Assembly: GCA_020056965.1 (NCBI GenBank)
Contig: JAGVGT010000031.1
Span: 54,170-118,169, forward strand
DNA from: Deltaproteobacteria bacterium
GTDB lineage: Bacteria > Desulfobacterota > Desulfobulbia > Desulfobulbales > JAGXFP01
Direction of reading: 5' to 3'
DNA: 64,000 bases
A program made the position numbers and the translations under genes. Under the pieces are notes generated by a model. It made no database searches and was not told the origin of the DNA. It saw only the letters and a list, made by a program, of their open reading frames with translations. Shown in pieces: positions 7,202-57,935 of the stretch (the stretch's first letter is position 1; every line of letters starts with the position of its first letter).

Positions 7202-7990
7202 ATGGATATCCCCTTTCTAATTTCCTTGGTGATTCTCGGGTTTGGCGGCGGCATTCTCTCCGGCCTGCTGGGGTTGGGCGGCGCCATCTTCATGATCCCC
7301 ATTCTGCTCTACGTGCCGCCGCTCTTGGGCGTCGGCCAGCTCGACATGAAGCAGGTCGCGGCGATCAGCATGGTCCAGGTGCTGGCCGCCTCGCTCTCCG
7401 GCCTGGTGGTTCATTACAAAAACCGCTTCGTCAGCCGTTCGTTGCTGCTCTACATGGGGTTGGCCAACGCCGTCGGCAATCTGGCCGGCTCGCTCTACTC
7501 CAAGAACACCAACAGCGAGTTTCTGCTGGCGATCTTTGCGACCTTGGCGATCATCGCCGCCATCGTCATGTTCGTCCCCAAGCGGGAGCAGGGCACCGAG
7601 ATCCAGCCCGAGGATCTGGTCTACAATAAGCCCCTGGCCACGGTGATCAGTCTGGCCATCGGCTGTTTCGGCGGCATGGTGGGGGCGCCGGGCGCCTTCA
7701 TCTATATCCCGATCATGATCTATCTGCTGAACATCCCCACCCGCATCGTCATCGGCTCCACCCTGGGCATCGTCCTGCTGGGGGCGATCATGGGGACCAT
7801 CGGTAAGGCGGCCACCGGCCAGATCATCTGGCCCCTCGCCATTGCTCTGGTGATCGGCACCATCCCCGGCGCCCAGCTGGGCGGGCGGCTGAGCAAGAAG
7901 ACCAATACCAAACATCTGCGGCTGGCCATCGCGGTGATTATCGCCGTGACCGGGCTGCGCATGTGGTATCAGGTCTTGAGCGGCCATTGA
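7202..7990 (+). CDS. TauE/SafE-family sulfite/anion exporter
   Basis: GFGGGILSGLLGLGGAIFMIPILLY and second-half repeat GCFGGMVGAPGAFIYIPIMIY. Confidence 0.85.
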   Translation: MDIPFLISLVILGFGGGILSGLLGLGGAIFMIPILLYVPPLLGVGQLDMKQVAAISMVQVLAASLSGLVVHYKNRFVSRSLLLYMGLANAVGNLAGSLYSKNTNSEFLLAIFATLAIIAAIVMFVPKREQGTEIQPEDLVYNKPLATVISLAIGCFGGMVGAPGAFIYIPIMIYLLNIPTRIVIGSTLGIVLLGAIMGTIGKAATGQIIWPLAIALVIGTIPGAQLGGRLSKKTNTKHLRLAIAVIIAVTGLRMWYQVLSGH

Positions 7991-49083: not shown

Positions 49084-51405
49084 ATGCCACGCAATCAACG
49101 CCCCCCTCGTCGAGCCCCTGGCGGTAAACGCCGCCCCGAGCAACGCCAGCCCGCCCAGGCCCGGCGGCAAGGCCGCCAGGGCCACCACCAGTCGTCGCCG
49201 GAAACCCCACGCGCCTTGAGCATGGAAGACCAACTCTTCCTCCTGCTTCATTCCCTTGGCGGCAAACTGGGTCACCAGGAAATCATCCGGGGCCTCAAGC
49301 CCGAGTCGCGCGGCGCCCAACGCAAGCTGGACAAGCTCCTCGACCAGCTCGGCCGGGACCGGGTGCTGGACAATGACGACGGGACTTACAGCCTGCGGCC
49401 CGGCCGGGATCTGTTCGAGGCCACCCTCGGCGTCCATCCGCGCGGCTTCGGCTTTGCCACCCCGGTGGCGGCACCTCCCGGCCGGGAAAACGATATCTTC
49501 ATCCCCTTTCCCCACCTGGGTGGCGCCTCCCACGGCGACCGGGTTTTGGTGCGGGTCGAGGACCCCCGCAAGGAGCGCCAGGAAGGACGGATCGTCAAGG
49601 TGTTGAACCGGGGCACCACCCGGCTGGTTGGGATCTACCGGCTGGGCCGGGTCTTCCCCGAGGACCAGCGCTTCACCTACCGGGTGCTGGTCGATCCGGA
49701 TTCCGTGAGCAGCCAGGACGAGGGCAAGGTGGTGTTGGCCGAGATCACCGATTTCAGCAGCGACCCCCTGCATCCCAAAGGCCGGATCCTCCAGGTCCTG
49801 GGCGACCCCGACGACCCGGCCATCCAGGCCGAGATCGTCATCTACGCCCACGATCTGCCCCATAGTTTCAGCCCGGCCGCCCTGGCCGAGGCCGAGGCCC
49901 TGGTGCCGGCCATCCAGCCCGGACCGGACCGGCTCGATCTGCGCGCCATCCCCCACGTCACCATCGACGGCGAGACCGCCCAGGACTTTGACGATGCCGT
50001 CTCGATTGAGGAGACTCCCAAGGGTTACCGGCTCTACGTCTCCATCGCCGACGTCAGCCATTACGTCACCCCCGGTTCGCCCCTGGACGACGAGGCCTAT
50101 CATCGCGGGACCAGCATCTATTTCCCGGGCCGGGTGGTGCCGATGCTGCCGGAGCGGCTTTCCAACGACCTCTGCAGCCTGGTGCCGGACCAGGACCGGC
50201 TGGCCTTCACCGCCATCCTCGACTTCGACGCCGAGGGCAAGCCGATCGGCAAGAAGTTCACCCGGGCGGTGATCCGCAGCCATTTCCGCTTCACCTACAA
50301 CCTGGTCCAGGAGATCCTTGACGCCGCCCCCAAGGCCAAGGTCCGCGCCAGCCACCGGGAGTTCGTCCAGCCCCTGCAGACCATGGCCACCCTGGCCGGT
50401 GCCCTGGAAAAGCGGCGGTCCAAGCGGGGCAGCATCGGCTTCGAGATCCCCGAGGCCGATATTCGGCTGGACGCCGACGGCGCCATCGCCTCGGTCTCGC
50501 GGACCAACCGGCTCCAGGCCCATAAACTGATCGAGGAGTTCATGCTGGCCGCCAACGAGGCAGTGGCCGAGACCTTCACCAAGGCGGCCAAGGAGGCGCG
50601 GCGCGACTTCCTCTACCGGATCCACGAACAGCCCGACCCCTTAAAGGTGGAGAATTTCGTCGAGTTCGCCCGCACCATCGGCGTCCCGCTGGGCCGCGAC
50701 CCCGGCACCCCCAGCTGGTTTGCCAAGATCATCCAGTCGGTGCACGGCTCCCCCCGCGAGTATGTGATCAGCAACCTGCTGCTCCGGACCATGCAGCAGG
50801 CCCGCTACTCGCCGGAGAACGTCGGCCACTTCGGCCTGGCCGCCAGCGACTACTGCCACTTCACCTCGCCGATCCGCCGCTACCCGGACCTCTTGGTCCA
50901 CCGCTCCCTGACCCGGCTGCTCACCCCCAAGACCGGCCGGGGCAAGCCCTTCTACGCCGATATCCAGGAGGCCGGCCTCTTTCTCTCCGACCGGGAGCGC
51001 AAGGCGGTGACCGCCGAGCGCGAGGTGACCGAGCGGCTGCAGGTACGCTACATGGCCAAGCACGTCGGCGAGGAGTTTGACGGCATCGTCTCCGGGGTGG
51101 CCGGGTTCGGCCTCTTCGTGGAGCTGCTGGATTCCTTCATCAGCGGCGGGGTGCCGGTGGCCGACCTCACCGACGACTTTTACGAGATCGACGAGAAGAA
51201 CCACCGGCTGCTGGGCAAGCGCTCGGGCCGCAAGATCAACATCGGCGACATCATCAAGGTCAAGGTGGCGGCGGTCCATATCGAACGGCGGCGGATCGAC
51301 TTTGTACCGGTCTGGCAGGAGGAACAACCGTCCGCCGGTGAAGGCGGGAAAAAGGGCAAGACAGGGGCACCACCGGAGACAAAACGCCGTTCCCGAAGGC
51401 GCTGA
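49084..51405 (+). CDS. rnr: ribonuclease R
   Basis: IDGETAQDFDDAVSIEET, YHRGTSIYFPGRVVPMLPERLSNDLCSL, S1 domain at C-terminus. Confidence 0.95.
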   Translation: MPRNQRPPRRAPGGKRRPEQRQPAQARRQGRQGHHQSSPETPRALSMEDQLFLLLHSLGGKLGHQEIIRGLKPESRGAQRKLDKLLDQLGRDRVLDNDDGTYSLRPGRDLFEATLGVHPRGFGFATPVAAPPGRENDIFIPFPHLGGASHGDRVLVRVEDPRKERQEGRIVKVLNRGTTRLVGIYRLGRVFPEDQRFTYRVLVDPDSVSSQDEGKVVLAEITDFSSDPLHPKGRILQVLGDPDDPAIQAEIVIYAHDLPHSFSPAALAEAEALVPAIQPGPDRLDLRAIPHVTIDGETAQDFDDAVSIEETPKGYRLYVSIADVSHYVTPGSPLDDEAYHRGTSIYFPGRVVPMLPERLSNDLCSLVPDQDRLAFTAILDFDAEGKPIGKKFTRAVIRSHFRFTYNLVQEILDAAPKAKVRASHREFVQPLQTMATLAGALEKRRSKRGSIGFEIPEADIRLDADGAIASVSRTNRLQAHKLIEEFMLAANEAVAETFTKAAKEARRDFLYRIHEQPDPLKVENFVEFARTIGVPLGRDPGTPSWFAKIIQSVHGSPREYVISNLLLRTMQQARYSPENVGHFGLAASDYCHFTSPIRRYPDLLVHRSLTRLLTPKTGRGKPFYADIQEAGLFLSDRERKAVTAEREVTERLQVRYMAKHVGEEFDGIVSGVAGFGLFVELLDSFISGGVPVADLTDDFYEIDEKNHRLLGKRSGRKINIGDIIKVKVAAVHIERRRIDFVPVWQEEQPSAGEGGKKGKTGAPPETKRRSRRR

Positions 51406-51430
51406 AAACTGTTGTGTGTAACAGTAACTT

Positions 51431-51592
51431 TCCGTTCACACTGAGCCTGTCGAAGTGTGGCCCAGTTCGATTTAGGCAACCAAGGGTATTGGCTTGTTAA
51501 AATGCGGGATTAGCCAATTATTACGATTGGGTATTCTGGTGCGGACTTAGTATTAAGTTGGGCCGTCCTTCGACAAGCTCAGGACGAACGGA
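51431..51592. repeat. pair of inverted REP-like units (ccgttcacactgagcctgtcgaagtgtggccca ... gggccgtccttcgacaagctcaggacgaacgg)
   Basis: Inverted arms; third copy near 180-213. Confidence 0.8.
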
Positions 51593-51629
51593 GCAGCTGA
51601 TTGTTATACACCAAAGGAGAGGTAGGAAG

Positions 51630-51848
51630 ATGCTCTTTGCCCTTTATATTGTTGGCGGTTTATTAGCCATAGGTATGATAATTGGAGATATTTATTCAAT
51701 ATTCAAAGAAGACGTCAAAATGGCCGATGGTATAGGGCACAAAACAAAAACTTTTTTATTTCAAAGCTTCCAAACCCTTTTCTTCTTAACAGCCGCTTTT
51801 GTTTTTTCATGGGTAGCTGTCGGTTTTATCTACACAAAAAACAAATGA
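51630..51848 (+). CDS. small membrane protein
   Basis: aaaggagagg RBS; two TM segments. Confidence 0.5.
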   Translation: MLFALYIVGGLLAIGMIIGDIYSIFKEDVKMADGIGHKTKTFLFQSFQTLFFLTAAFVFSWVAVGFIYTKNK

Positions 51849-52015
51849 ATATAACCTTATAGTGAATGTCTTATTGAAACTGCTAAAATATAGTTTTTTT
51901 CAGGTGACAAGAGTGCACCTGACATCTACAGGACGATTGTTGTCAAAGTAATGGTTGAGGCTCGTTCCAAAATCAATGTCTAGTAGGCTTCACCATGATC
52001 GAAATGCAACGACGA

Positions 52016-52552
52016 ATGTTATACACCCCAATCTTTCACATCGACACTAACCTTATCAACGCTCGCTGCTCACTTCCCACAATGAACCAAATCGAGAAGT
52101 GGGCTGCTGACGAAATAATCTTGGTAAACATGTCCGGTGTAAGTTTCAAAGAAGCGTTTGCGGGAAACAATGCAACTCGCACAAAGAAAACCCTCGCTCA
52201 GTTGTTCACCCTTACCGACGAAAACATAGATATCACTTGCAAGCGCTATCGTGAGATAGAAAACACTATCTTCCCTGGAGGCGCGAAAAACCAAAACCAG
52301 CAAAACGACGTGAAGATTATTTACGAGGCAGCGCATTGGAATGCCATATTGATAACGCATGATGGCGCCTCCAAGAGTCAGCCTGGTGGAATTTTGGGCA
52401 GACGCGACAAACTGCGCGGCTTCGTACAAATATTGTCTGATACAGAGGCCGTAGAGTTTGTTCGCCGCAAAATTGCCGAACGCGACGCCTTAAACCGTCT
52501 TGTTGCCAAGGAAACAGGGGAGCGCCTCCCTACATGGGTAGGAGATGACTGA
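52016..52552 (+). CDS. PIN-like domain protein
   Basis: IFHIDTNLINAR ... NDVKIIYEAAHWNAILITHDGASK; acidic residue spacing typical of PIN-like nucleases. Confidence 0.5.
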   Translation: MLYTPIFHIDTNLINARCSLPTMNQIEKWAADEIILVNMSGVSFKEAFAGNNATRTKKTLAQLFTLTDENIDITCKRYREIENTIFPGGAKNQNQQNDVKIIYEAAHWNAILITHDGASKSQPGGILGRRDKLRGFVQILSDTEAVEFVRRKIAERDALNRLVAKETGERLPTWVGDD

Positions 52553-52670
52553 CTTCACTTCTGCCTTGACGCTCCCTTGGCTCTAGTAGGTTGATTTATC
52601 TAAAAAAGGGTATCCGGTCACGGCCGAATACCTTCCACATGCAAGACATTCCAAAAAACACGGAACCACC

Positions 52671-54260
52671 ATGCCCGCAAAACCAATCCGCAAAATCCTG
52701 ATCCTCACCCGCGAGTACGACGGCCTGGCCGGCGCCGGCGGGGTCAAGGACTTCACCGCCCAGCTGGCTGCGGCCTTGGCCCGCAAGGGTAACCGCCAGG
52801 TCACCGTCATGCTGCCCTGCTACGGCTTCATGGACCCGGAGGCGTTGGGCTTTGCCTTAAGCGACCTCACTCTGGAAGTGGAGATGAACTACGTGGGCCG
52901 GGAGCGCCGGGAGTCGGTGCGCTTCTGGGAGGCCAGCCGCGACGGGGTGCGGATCGTCCTGGTTGGTGCCGACCGCTACACCGAAAAAGGTGGGGTCTAT
53001 ACCTACACCGCTGCCGAAACGGCCTCCTACCCCAGACATCAGCAGGGCCAGGCCCATTACGACTACTTCGCCATGAACCTCCTGCTGCAGAAGGCGGCCA
53101 TCGCCCGACTGGTCCGGCTGGACGAGCGGCCGGAGATCATCCACTGCCAGGATGGCCACACCGCCCTACTGCCCGCCCTGATCCGGGAGAACGAGGGCTA
53201 CCGCCACTACTTCCACGCCACCGGCTGCCTGGTCACCATCCACAACGCCGGGGTGGGCTACCACCAGGAGGTGGGCGACCTGGCCTTCGCCGAGCGCATC
53301 ACCGGCCTGCCCTCGCGGGTGATCCTCGCCAACCAGTTGAACGGCCAGTTCGATCCCTTCCTGGCCGCCGCCACTTACAGCATCCTGAACACGGTGAGCG
53401 AGAACTACGCCCGTGAGCTGCAGGAGAGCGAGGATGACGACCTGACCGGCGGGCTGGGCCACAAACTGCTGACCCGCGGGGTGATCCTGGAAGGGGTGAC
53501 CAACGGCATCGAACCGGACCATTACGACCCCGCCCATCCGGAACGGCTGGGGCTGGTGGCCGGTTTTTCTCCGGAGCGGGGCCAGTGGAGCGGCAAGGCT
53601 CGCTGCCGGGCCGATCTGGTGGCGACCATGGCGGCGGGCAATTCCTCGGGCGTCCTCCAGACCGGCCACCTCGAATCGCATCCCAGCCAGCCGCTCTTCA
53701 CCTTTATCGGCCGCTTCACCGCCCAGAAAGGGGTGGATAAATTGATCGGCGCCCTGGAAACCCTGTTGCCCCTGGACAAGAAGTTCCAGATCTTGATCAT
53801 GGGCAGCGGCGACAAGGAAACCGAGGATGCGCTGGTCCGGCTGGCCGGCTCCGAACTTTACCGGGGGCGGCTCTGCCTGCTGCGCGGCTACGACGAGCAG
53901 TTGGCCATGCGGGTGTACGCAGCCGGGGATTTCTTCGTGATCCCCTCCCGCTACGAGCCCTGTGGGCTGACCGACTTCATCGCCCAGCTCTTCGGCAACC
54001 TGCCCATCGTCCACCACATCGGTGGGCTGGTCAAGGTGGTGGACGGCGTCACCGGCCTGGCCTACCGGGAGCACAACTCCGCCGCCCTGATGGGCGCCAT
54101 GCTCAAGGCCTTGGAGCTGTTCCGCAGCGAACCGGCCAAGGTCCGGGAAATGCGCGAGGCGGCGGTGGCTCATATCAAGGAGAACTACACCTGGGATATC
54201 GTGGTTGAGCGTTATCTGGCGCTGTATCGAAGGGCGCTGGAGATGGCGGAGAAGGGGTAA
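52671..54260 (+). CDS. glycogen/starch synthase-type (GT5) glycosyltransferase
   Basis: GLAGAGGVKDFTAQLAAALA, GVTNGIEPDHYDP, FIGRFTAQKGVDKLI, FFVIPSRYEPCGLTDFIAQLFGNLPIV. Confidence 0.88.
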   Translation: MPAKPIRKILILTREYDGLAGAGGVKDFTAQLAAALARKGNRQVTVMLPCYGFMDPEALGFALSDLTLEVEMNYVGRERRESVRFWEASRDGVRIVLVGADRYTEKGGVYTYTAAETASYPRHQQGQAHYDYFAMNLLLQKAAIARLVRLDERPEIIHCQDGHTALLPALIRENEGYRHYFHATGCLVTIHNAGVGYHQEVGDLAFAERITGLPSRVILANQLNGQFDPFLAAATYSILNTVSENYARELQESEDDDLTGGLGHKLLTRGVILEGVTNGIEPDHYDPAHPERLGLVAGFSPERGQWSGKARCRADLVATMAAGNSSGVLQTGHLESHPSQPLFTFIGRFTAQKGVDKLIGALETLLPLDKKFQILIMGSGDKETEDALVRLAGSELYRGRLCLLRGYDEQLAMRVYAAGDFFVIPSRYEPCGLTDFIAQLFGNLPIVHHIGGLVKVVDGVTGLAYREHNSAALMGAMLKALELFRSEPAKVREMREAAVAHIKENYTWDIVVERYLALYRRALEMAEKG

Positions 54261-54326
54261 TAGCGAAAGATTTCCTGGCGTATATCTTCCCGATTGGGAT
54301 GATATACGGATCTGCTTAATTACTTG

Positions 54327-54960
54327 TTCTGCTAAAGAATTTTCTTAATACGTCCTGGAGGCACTTTCACGATGAAAATAAAGAGCATCGAAAGATTATT
54401 TATAAAAGCTGCCTGTCCGACCTGTCCTGTCTGCCGTAAGAAATTTCCAAGAAATGAAAGAGAACGAGCTTGTGTAATCGCTTCGTATGGCACCCTTGAG
54501 GAACATTATTGCTCTAAAGCTAAAAAATCACAAAACATAGAAACAAAAAAACCATTAAAAAAAGAAACTACCCGCATAAACCCTAAAAAGGTTAGTCGCA
54601 TGTCTTGTCAAACATGTGGCAATACATTCTTAATCAACTCTTCTGGTTATCTTGAGGAACATAATTGTAATAACCCTAACCCTACAAAAAAAGAATTTAT
54701 AAAACGAATGCTTTCAGGTGGCGGAGCGAATGGCACTGGAAAGAGAAGATAGCCCGTGTGGGATGTAGTTCTTTAAAAAGCATTCCTTGCGAAAAATGGG
54801 GTTATTCTTGATCTTGCCTCTCGGTGTATAGAACATGGCTAAAATAGCAGAACAAGGCGTTTAACTATGACCGGGGCCACGGCGGCGCGGTCTACCTTGC
54901 CATCCTACAACTTCATTACTCCAGCCGGGCGCAGTGTTGCCCCGGCAAGTTAACTTTGCG
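54327..54960 (+). mobile_element. integron gene cassette 3
   Basis: Begins G|TTCTGCTA (54326-54334); attC R'' end TAGCAGAAC (54845-54853) is its perfect 9-nt complement. Confidence 0.85.
54372..54752 (+). CDS. cassette-encoded protein with two zinc-finger-like repeats
   Basis: CPVCRKKFPRNERERACVIASYGTLEEHYC and CQTCGNTFLINSSGYLEEHNC. Confidence 0.65.
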   Translation: MKIKSIERLFIKAACPTCPVCRKKFPRNERERACVIASYGTLEEHYCSKAKKSQNIETKKPLKKETTRINPKKVSRMSCQTCGNTFLINSSGYLEEHNCNNPNPTKKEFIKRMLSGGGANGTGKRR

Positions 54961-54966
54961 TTATGC
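54845..54966 (+). repeat. attC recombination site 3
   Basis: R'' GCAGAAC; arms ttaact..accggggcc / gccccggcaagttaac; R' core GTTATGC at 54960-54966. Confidence 0.85.
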
Positions 54967-54977
54967 ACTGGTGAATC

Positions 54978-55634
54978 ATGGTTGACCTTAAATCTACAGG
55001 TTTGACACTTAACTTTCGTCCAGGATTTGGGCTGGCCCACTTGCGGACAGCCTCCAAGCTCTCTGAATTATGTGGAGAGGTTGAAGTCAAGAATGAAGGC
55101 GCTAAGTTTGGTCCTTTTTTTGATGATATTAACGATTATTCATCTGCGTGTGTTATGTCTTGCGTTGCTTCATTAGAGGCTTATATAAACGAAATATTTA
55201 TTGATAGAGAAAAACACTTTAAAATTCATGATATTAACTTGATGGATGATTTATGGGACATTTTAGAAAAAAAAAGCATAATCGACAAATTTCAATTTGC
55301 TCTTCTGCTTAAAAATAAGGAAAAGTTCAAAACATCCTCAAAAGTCATGGATCACGTCAAAACATTGATCAAACTTCGTAATTCTTTGGTTCATTTTAAG
55401 CCTGAATGGGTTCATCTTCAGAAAGAGCACGACAAAATAGGTAAGGCCTTAATCGGTAAGTTTGAAATGAGTTCGTTTTTGCAATCAGCAGAACCGATAT
55501 TTCCTCTTCGCTGTATGTCATATAGCATGACTAAGTGGGCAGTTCGGTCAAGTCACGAATTCATCAACGAGTTTTCTGATTTATCAACAATCGAAAATCG
55601 TATTAAGAATTTTGAGCATATTTTCAATTTATGA
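54978..55634 (+). CDS. cassette-encoded HEPN-like protein
   Basis: Helical; CVASLEAYINEIF and LIKLRNSLVHFKPEW (RNxxxH) motif. Confidence 0.6.
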   Translation: MVDLKSTGLTLNFRPGFGLAHLRTASKLSELCGEVEVKNEGAKFGPFFDDINDYSSACVMSCVASLEAYINEIFIDREKHFKIHDINLMDDLWDILEKKSIIDKFQFALLLKNKEKFKTSSKVMDHVKTLIKLRNSLVHFKPEWVHLQKEHDKIGKALIGKFEMSSFLQSAEPIFPLRCMSYSMTKWAVRSSHEFINEFSDLSTIENRIKNFEHIFNL

Positions 55635-55638
55635 AAAC

Positions 55639-55696
55639 GCATAACAAACGATTAGAGAGGGACGCGGTAAAGATATGCGGCGCTAAAGCGGTCAAA
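55639..55696 (+). repeat. left half of attC 4, ~50 nt nearly identical to attC 1
   Basis: aacaaacgattagagagggacgcggtaaagatatgcggcgctaaagcggtcaa versus 1816-1868; few mismatches. Confidence 0.8.
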
Positions 55697-55752
55697 CACG
55701 TAAGGTGCAATCTGCCGCCATCCCATGTAGGGCGGCAATAGCGCAGCGCATT
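55697..55752 (+). repeat. inverted copy of 1005-1061 repeat, abutting truncated attC 4
   Basis: See 1005-1061. Confidence 0.85.
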
Positions 55753-55904
55753 GCGCCGGATGAATCGGCCCGAGACATTGGAACGAAAGCAACTCATCTG
55801 CCATGCCTGATTTTGTGCGTGTTGCTTGATAGCACTGATAACCCCCTCACCCTCACACTCCTCGAGAGATGAGATTTTCTCCTAAAAGACCAGCGAGCCT
55901 CGAC

Positions 55905-56930: not shown

Positions 56931-57935
56931 ATGACCATCAAGATCGGCATCAACGGTTTCGGCCGGATCGGCAGGGCAATCTTCCGGGCCAGGGACATGG
57001 ACCCGGCCTTCGCCGACATCGAAATCGTCGCCATCAACGACCTCACCGACAACGCCACCCTGGCCCATTTGCTTAAATACGATTCGGTCATGGGCGTTTA
57101 CACCGCCGAGGTCAAGGCCAACGAGCAGGGTATTACCGTGGCGGGCCGCCAGGTGGCCATTTTCAACCATCGCAACCCGGCCGACATCCCCTGGGGCAGC
57201 CTGGGGGTTGATTACGTGGTCGAGTCCACCGGCTATTTCACCAGTGGTGAGAAGGCCCACGCCCACATCGATGCCGGGGCCAAGAAGGTGGTGATCTCGG
57301 CCCCGGCCAAGGGCGAGGTCAAGACCATCGTCATGGGGGTCAACGAGGACGACTACGATCCCACCGTTGACCATATCGTCTCCAACGCCTCCTGCACCAC
57401 CAACTGCCTGGCCCCGGTCGCCAAGGTGATCCTGAACCGTTTCGGGATCAAAAAGGGATTGATGACCACCGTCCACGCCTATACCAACGACCAGAGCCTC
57501 CTGGACTTCCCCCACTCCGATCTGCGCCGGGCCAGGGCGGCGGCGATGTCGATGATCCCCACCAAGACCGGGGCGGCGGCAGCCGTGGCCCTGGTCCTCC
57601 CCGACCTGAAGGGCAAGTTCGACGGCCTGGCGGTGCGGGTGCCGACCCCCAACGTCTCGCTGGTTGACGTGGTGATGGAGGTGGAACGGGAGACCAATGT
57701 CACCGAGGTCAACCAGGCCTTAAAGGATGAGGCCAACCGCTATCTGGGCTACTCCGACGAACCGCTGGTCTCCATCGATTACCAGGGCAACCCCCACTCC
57801 TCGGTGGTGGACGCCATGTCCACCAAGGTGATCGGTTCCATGGTCAAGATCCTGAGCTGGTACGATAATGAATGGGGCTACTCCAACCGGGTCCTCGACC
57901 TGATCCGCCACATGGAGGCCAACAAGGCGCTGTAG
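56931..57935 (+). CDS. gap: glyceraldehyde-3-phosphate dehydrogenase
   Basis: INGFGRIGRAIFRA, SNASCTTNCLAPVAKV, SWYDNEWGYSNRVLDL. Confidence 0.97.
   Translation: MTIKIGINGFGRIGRAIFRARDMDPAFADIEIVAINDLTDNATLAHLLKYDSVMGVYTAEVKANEQGITVAGRQVAIFNHRNPADIPWGSLGVDYVVESTGYFTSGEKAHAHIDAGAKKVVISAPAKGEVKTIVMGVNEDDYDPTVDHIVSNASCTTNCLAPVAKVILNRFGIKKGLMTTVHAYTNDQSLLDFPHSDLRRARAAAMSMIPTKTGAAAAVALVLPDLKGKFDGLAVRVPTPNVSLVDVVMEVERETNVTEVNQALKDEANRYLGYSDEPLVSIDYQGNPHSSVVDAMSTKVIGSMVKILSWYDNEWGYSNRVLDLIRHMEANKAL

Follow-up and report, generated by a model that had tools for sequence, protein, structure and literature searches.

A probable integrase-less integron mini-array behind glgA in a Desulfobulbales genome, headed by an attI-like site of a kind found across the order

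How two small open reading frames (ORFs) came to lie between a glycogen synthase gene and a GAPDH gene is the question raised by a 64,000-nucleotide stretch of DNA from a Desulfobulbales bacterium, whose relatives and genes point to a probable lineage of sulfate reducers. This stretch (the window; positions 54170–118169 of contig 58) belongs to a draft genome of 3.08 Mb in 96 contigs that is around 90% complete. The initial annotation had read the region as a cassette array, and all of the letters and coordinates that it gave proved exact on re-checking. We consider it highly probable that 54279–55694 is an integrase-less, attI-headed integron mini-array that was inserted between glgA and GAPDH and entered by IntI-mediated attI × attC recombination. 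The integron-cassette reading is thereby upheld, with the corrections that no integrase accompanies the array, that only one of its two attCs is complete and that its left boundary is attI-like. The host genes on either side are as follows.

52671–54260, + strand: glgA-like glycogen/starch synthase gene, the upstream host flank; orthologues in relatives are 51–67% identical and adjoin GAPDH
56931–57935, + strand: GAPDH gene, the downstream host flank; in relatives it is syntenic with glgA

glgA and GAPDH are neighbours in 17 relatives, among them all four genomes of the same family. In most of these the two genes are 30–480 bp apart, and in none of the 17 did the interval contain cassettes, an attI-like site or any cassette protein. 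The check on syntenic relatives that the initial annotation had proposed thus came out in favour of an insertion, glgA there being followed directly by GAPDH. The 2.5-kb gap in one relative (G002) probably contains a sensor kinase gene, as read from its sequence, and hence no cassettes. None of the four same-family genomes has the proteins of the two cassettes, and of 258 genomes of the class almost all lack them. Upstream of glgA, the window has a low-GC segment reaching back to an RNase R-like gene (51405–52671), with two small ORFs (51558 and 51995), in which the covariance model described below finds no attC.

Such absences bear on an alternative in which AT-rich, vertically inherited genes happen to be followed by an attC-like sequence. 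Neither ORF has a strong family match and a simple fold z-score is unremarkable, as this origin would allow, but both ORFs are missing in the 17 syntenic relatives, and the model match, the attI match and the complementarity of the boundaries are concordant, and the same architecture is seen again at further genomic loci. We regard chance resemblance as extremely improbable. The features of the inserted segment, in which a slash marks the boundary, are listed here.

54279–54328, + strand: attI-like site, with the recombination point after G54326; inverted repeat CGTATATC-N14-GATATACG plus ATCTGCTTAATTACTTG/TT
54327–54960, + strand: cassette 1, complete, 634 bp, with G/TT boundaries and 9-nt complementary ends
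54372–54752, + strand: ORF of cassette 1, 126 aa, with two Cys-rich CxxC...H..C zinc-finger-like repeats
54845–54966 (model match 54847–54966), + strand: attC1, with R'' GCAGAAC, L'' TAACT[A]TG[A]CCGGGG, L' CCCCGGCAAGTTA and R' G/TTATGC
54961–55694, + strand: cassette 2, 3'-truncated, starting G/TTATGC, with R'' GCATAAC at 55639 and without L' or R'
54978–55634, + strand: ORF of cassette 2, 218 aa, with a weak HEPN signal (RiboL-PSP/DRT-HEPN-like) and an RNSLVH motif
55639–55694, + strand: attC2 remnant, R'' and L'' only (AACAAACGATTAGAGAGGGACGCGG...), with no 3' half
55695–55766, + strand: dispersed palindromic REP-like repeat (GCAATAGCGCAGCGCATTGCGCC), in place of the 3' half of attC2

The start of each cassette is complementary to its R''. 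In cassette 1, GTTCTGCTA at 54326–54334 is the exact reverse complement of TAGCAGAAC at 54845–54853 (9 nt), and in cassette 2, GTTATGC at 54960–54966 is the exact reverse complement of GCATAAC at 55639–55645 (7 nt). Taken by itself, this complementarity is moderate rather than decisive evidence, because 4 of the 709 GTTs in the window (0.6%) have a 9-nt complement 150–1500 nt downstream and 72 (10%) have a 7-nt complement. The boundary match of cassette 2 alone, expected for 10% of random GTTs, is therefore a weak point of the mini-array reading.

Further evidence comes from attC1, which the initial annotation had placed at 54845–54966 and which was borne out both by an independent covariance model (R3) and by a separate pattern-plus-pairing scan. 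R3 was trained only on attCs from loci beside intact integron integrases in relatives, was rebuilt from full-length relatives and was searched against the window with filters off. It recovers attC1 as its top match in the window (24.0 bits, E = 0.0028), so that the covariance search once named as a possible refutation succeeds. The three best R3 matches in the window (attC1, 1812–1904 and one starting at 2893) fall precisely in its two low-GC cassette regions. The score of attC1 in the separate scan was 36.2, whereas 0.9 Mb of shuffled sequence yielded nothing above 30.0. Its L stem has 13 perfect base pairs once two A's are counted as extrahelical, and extrahelical bases in the stem are a hallmark of attC sites. 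The site thus has the R''/L''/L'/R' architecture together with extrahelical bases, and it matches the covariance model.

Two results on attC1 run against the mini-array reading. The free minimum of its bottom strand is another fold and not the attC fold (z = −1.0), the full bottom-strand cruciform lying just 2.1 kcal/mol above that minimum; and a previous model, R2, did not pick up attC1, whose long loop and two bulges are the probable reason. A further model, R1, emerged without base pairs, and no Rfam family reached its gathering threshold in the window. Because R' is part of the next cassette, real attCs escaped a search for the canonical GTTRRRY as well as a filter that demanded R''–R' pairing inside every integrated attC.

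For the small, Cys-rich product of cassette 1, a family search yielded weak zinc-finger matches only (E ≥ 0.026), leaving it without an assigned family. The product of cassette 2 gives a lead, not a result: because of its weak HEPN signal and RNSLVH motif, it may be an RNase of the defence or toxin–antitoxin type. The match to Pfam PF18735 (E = 8.8e-4) lies under the cut-off, and that to PADLOC RTasHEPN has E = 2.1e-4. A scan of the whole collection returned no relative of this protein, and distant homologues occur in a few plasmids. A single-sequence AlphaFold model was unusable (pLDDT 34), and sequence matches in the PDB were to dynein heavy chains, which we judged spurious.

The initial annotation had described the order boundary–ORF–attC as occurring twice. 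This stands for cassette 1 and for the start of cassette 2, and it fails at the second attC, of which R'' and L'' are all that is present. There is no L/L' stem and no L' or R' in attC2, to which the model gives 8.8 bits only, so cassette 2 does not end in a complete attC. From 55695 a REP-like repeat takes over, and 55752, previously given as the right end, is therefore no cassette boundary. This repeat has around 20 further copies in the genome at E < 0.01, which align from query base 54 or 56 on, and it adjoins both arrays of the window, an inverted copy (~999–1063) flanking the left array on its left side. The attC2 remnant and the first attC of the left array (1825–1844) have 20 identical nucleotides in common, as would be expected of one integron family. 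With the 3' half of its final attC lost to the dispersed repeat, the array would now be frozen.

The left boundary appears to be an attI-like site and not a bare insertion point. When 54279–54328 was aligned with the attI that lies between an intact intI and the first cassette in a relative (G003:C62), 36 of 50 positions were identical (score 52), whereas the best of 20 shuffled windows scored 30. The same 50 nt fit an order-wide attI core pattern with zero mismatches, and by sequence similarity alone an attI stands at the head of the array. A point against the mini-array reading is that the L half-site of this copy has TAC in place of AAC.

This boundary also allows a comparison with another route of entry, in which IntI puts cassettes into a random chromosomal attG site and so produces an ordinary cassette array without an attI. 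The clean G/TT boundary right behind a gene would suit such an event, and cassette insertion at attG is established in E. coli (Loot et al. 2024, as reported in PMC12901181 and PMC12444791). However, attG sites are strongly divergent from attI according to PMC12901181, whereas the block of 50 nt to the left of the boundary resembles an IntI-linked attI much more closely than chance would allow and fits the order-wide core exactly. We disfavour the attG reading and consider it unlikely. In the preferred reading, IntI would have recombined at 54279–54328, and the two cassettes would have been captured at the G/TT of the attI copy by attI × attC recombination, the integrase either acting from elsewhere or having been adjacent formerly and then lost. 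By eye, the alignment shows a promoter-like TTGTCA-N17-TATANA, oriented toward the cassettes, in the longer attI copies of the genome. Because the window copy is without this part, glgA read-through is the likeliest source of transcription of the array.

Where, then, is the integrase? Neither the right array nor its flank contains an intI, so the adjacent integrase gene of a complete integron is lacking. No match in the assembled genome exceeds the TIGR02249 cut-off for IntI, and the strongest matches (on C86 and C95) are XerC/XerD-like, not IntI. The assembly, in its present state, may lack an intact intI that the genome does carry, and this counts against the mini-array reading as an integrase-less one. 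Further attI copies on C35, C32 and C42 are longer than that of the window (225–250 nt, 77–87% identical). Beside the C35 copy lies a 247-aa intI pseudogene that consists of the N-terminal part and the IQELLGHSDLKTTMIYTHT end, with the catalytic middle deleted; over its last 40 residues it shares 82% identity with the IntI of G003. The C32 copy retains the intI start-codon region. The C35 locus and the left array of the window comprise the following.

L114:7799–8542 and 7736–7980 (C35): deleted intI pseudogene and full attI block, with at least three cassettes
1063–1078, + strand: attI-core remnant of the left array, 14 nt, TGCTTAATAACTTG/TT, with the inverted REP copy in front
1077–1904, + strand: cassette L1, with an ORF at 1091–1828 and an attC at 1812–1904 (R3, 21.0 bits, E = 0.014)
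1900–2935, + strand: cassette L2, with an ORF at 1937–2887 (DUF4238) and a truncated attC from 2893

The left array may have been broken by a REP-linked rearrangement. The cassettes on C35 include DUF2971 and a PDC-S06/AAA candidate defence gene. Other attCs recovered by the model lie on C35, C41 (six consecutive), C42, C59, C14, C4 and C89, and the 7-nt complement of R'' is exact at the cassette start for nearly all of the other cassettes. The run on C41 (L118:6159–9693), on a contig without IntI, is the largest in the genome, and its left boundary, TTCTGCTTAAAAACGTACTG/TT, bears only a loose resemblance to attI. A second, unrelated block of ~255 nt, 90.6% identical between C59 (L119:6290–6544) and C14 (L120), ends at G/TT and sits in one case behind a glgC-like gene; judged from its sequence, it is perhaps another type of attI.

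Across the order, the attI core pattern has 101 sites in 50 of 258 genomes, with up to eight per genome; the reversed pattern, used as a control, has none in any genome. By their coordinates, only three core sites lie divergently beside IntI as expected (G003:C62, G046:C6 and G172:C394), in a comparison with a partial IntI list covering 193 genomes. An IntI-like fragment lies within 1.5 kb at 2 of 30 sampled core sites. At 10 of 35 sampled sites without IntI, the exact R'' of the adjoining cassette is present downstream and is followed by an attC-like sequence (500 permutations: expected 0.93, maximum 4). Near 30 sampled sites the model finds six attCs, all downstream and on the right strand. 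One genome (G066; L169 and other loci) has eight copies of the core and no IntI match listed at E ≤ 1e-60. These data indicate that the order-wide core sites are attI-like, that many of them head real cassettes and that nearly all are without an adjacent integrase. We found no description of such an order-wide set of recognisable orphan attIs in the open-licence literature.

Such a set could be made of fossils. According to this explanation, the window once held a complete integron whose intI was cleanly deleted between the glgA stop codon and attI, and the other orphan attIs arose likewise. The internal deletion in the C35 pseudogene beside its attI, the start-codon region kept on C32 and the IntI-like fragments at the two sampled sites all fit, and one survey counted around a third of intI genes as pseudogenes (PMC2426708). 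However, there is no intI remnant near the window site or the C32, C42, G003:C14 or G020 copies, and most of the 101 sites, including the eight in G066, are without a nearby IntI, so that a clean deletion, each time with similar end points, would be demanded for every one of them. We regard fossil integrons as a serious possibility, if somewhat short of an even one. Alternatively, one integrase of the order may serve many dispersed attI platforms in trans, each an independent point of cassette entry and expression. The platforms would be attI-like sites of ~53 nt, sometimes extended to a ~230-nt block with the promoter-like element, in up to eight copies per genome. We put this forward tentatively, as an idea more likely to fail than to hold.

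Whichever history applies to the order, the preferred reading of the window as a recombination-derived mini-array can be set beside known systems. The array resembles a CALIN (cluster of attC sites lacking an integron-integrase) in that it consists of attC cassettes with no neighbouring intI, but it is headed by a recognisable attI-like site and has one complete attC plus a half site, short of the two that IntegronFinder 2.0 takes by default (PMC9024848). With sedentary chromosomal integrons it shares the attI, the G/TT boundary, the attC geometry, the R''/R' complementarity and small family-less ORFs; it differs in having no intI in cis, only two cassettes, a broken last attC and an attI without the Pc-like promoter present in the longer copies. 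Like the attG-integrated cassettes of Loot et al. (2024), it lies outside a main integron and right behind a housekeeping gene, but its entry site is attI-like over 50 nt and so is not an attG. Like the decayed integrons of Xanthomonas (PMC2426708, PMC12444791), this genome has a deleted intI pseudogene of its own and several CALINs elsewhere in the chromosome; unlike them, it shares with its relatives a scatter of several attI copies, of which hardly any has an adjacent intI.

The usual description of an integron pairs a single integrase with a single attI next to it (PMC9024848). Outside class 1, attI is poorly described, and by default IntegronFinder no longer seeks it (PMC9024848). It follows that attI-headed arrays without intI would be classed as plain CALINs. 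Integrase-less cassette arrays and insertion at attG are already known; the order-wide set of orphan attIs appears, from the open-licence literature, to be what is new. With around 100 of these sites recognisable in one order, it becomes testable whether CALINs are no more than decayed fragments or are active capture points served in trans.
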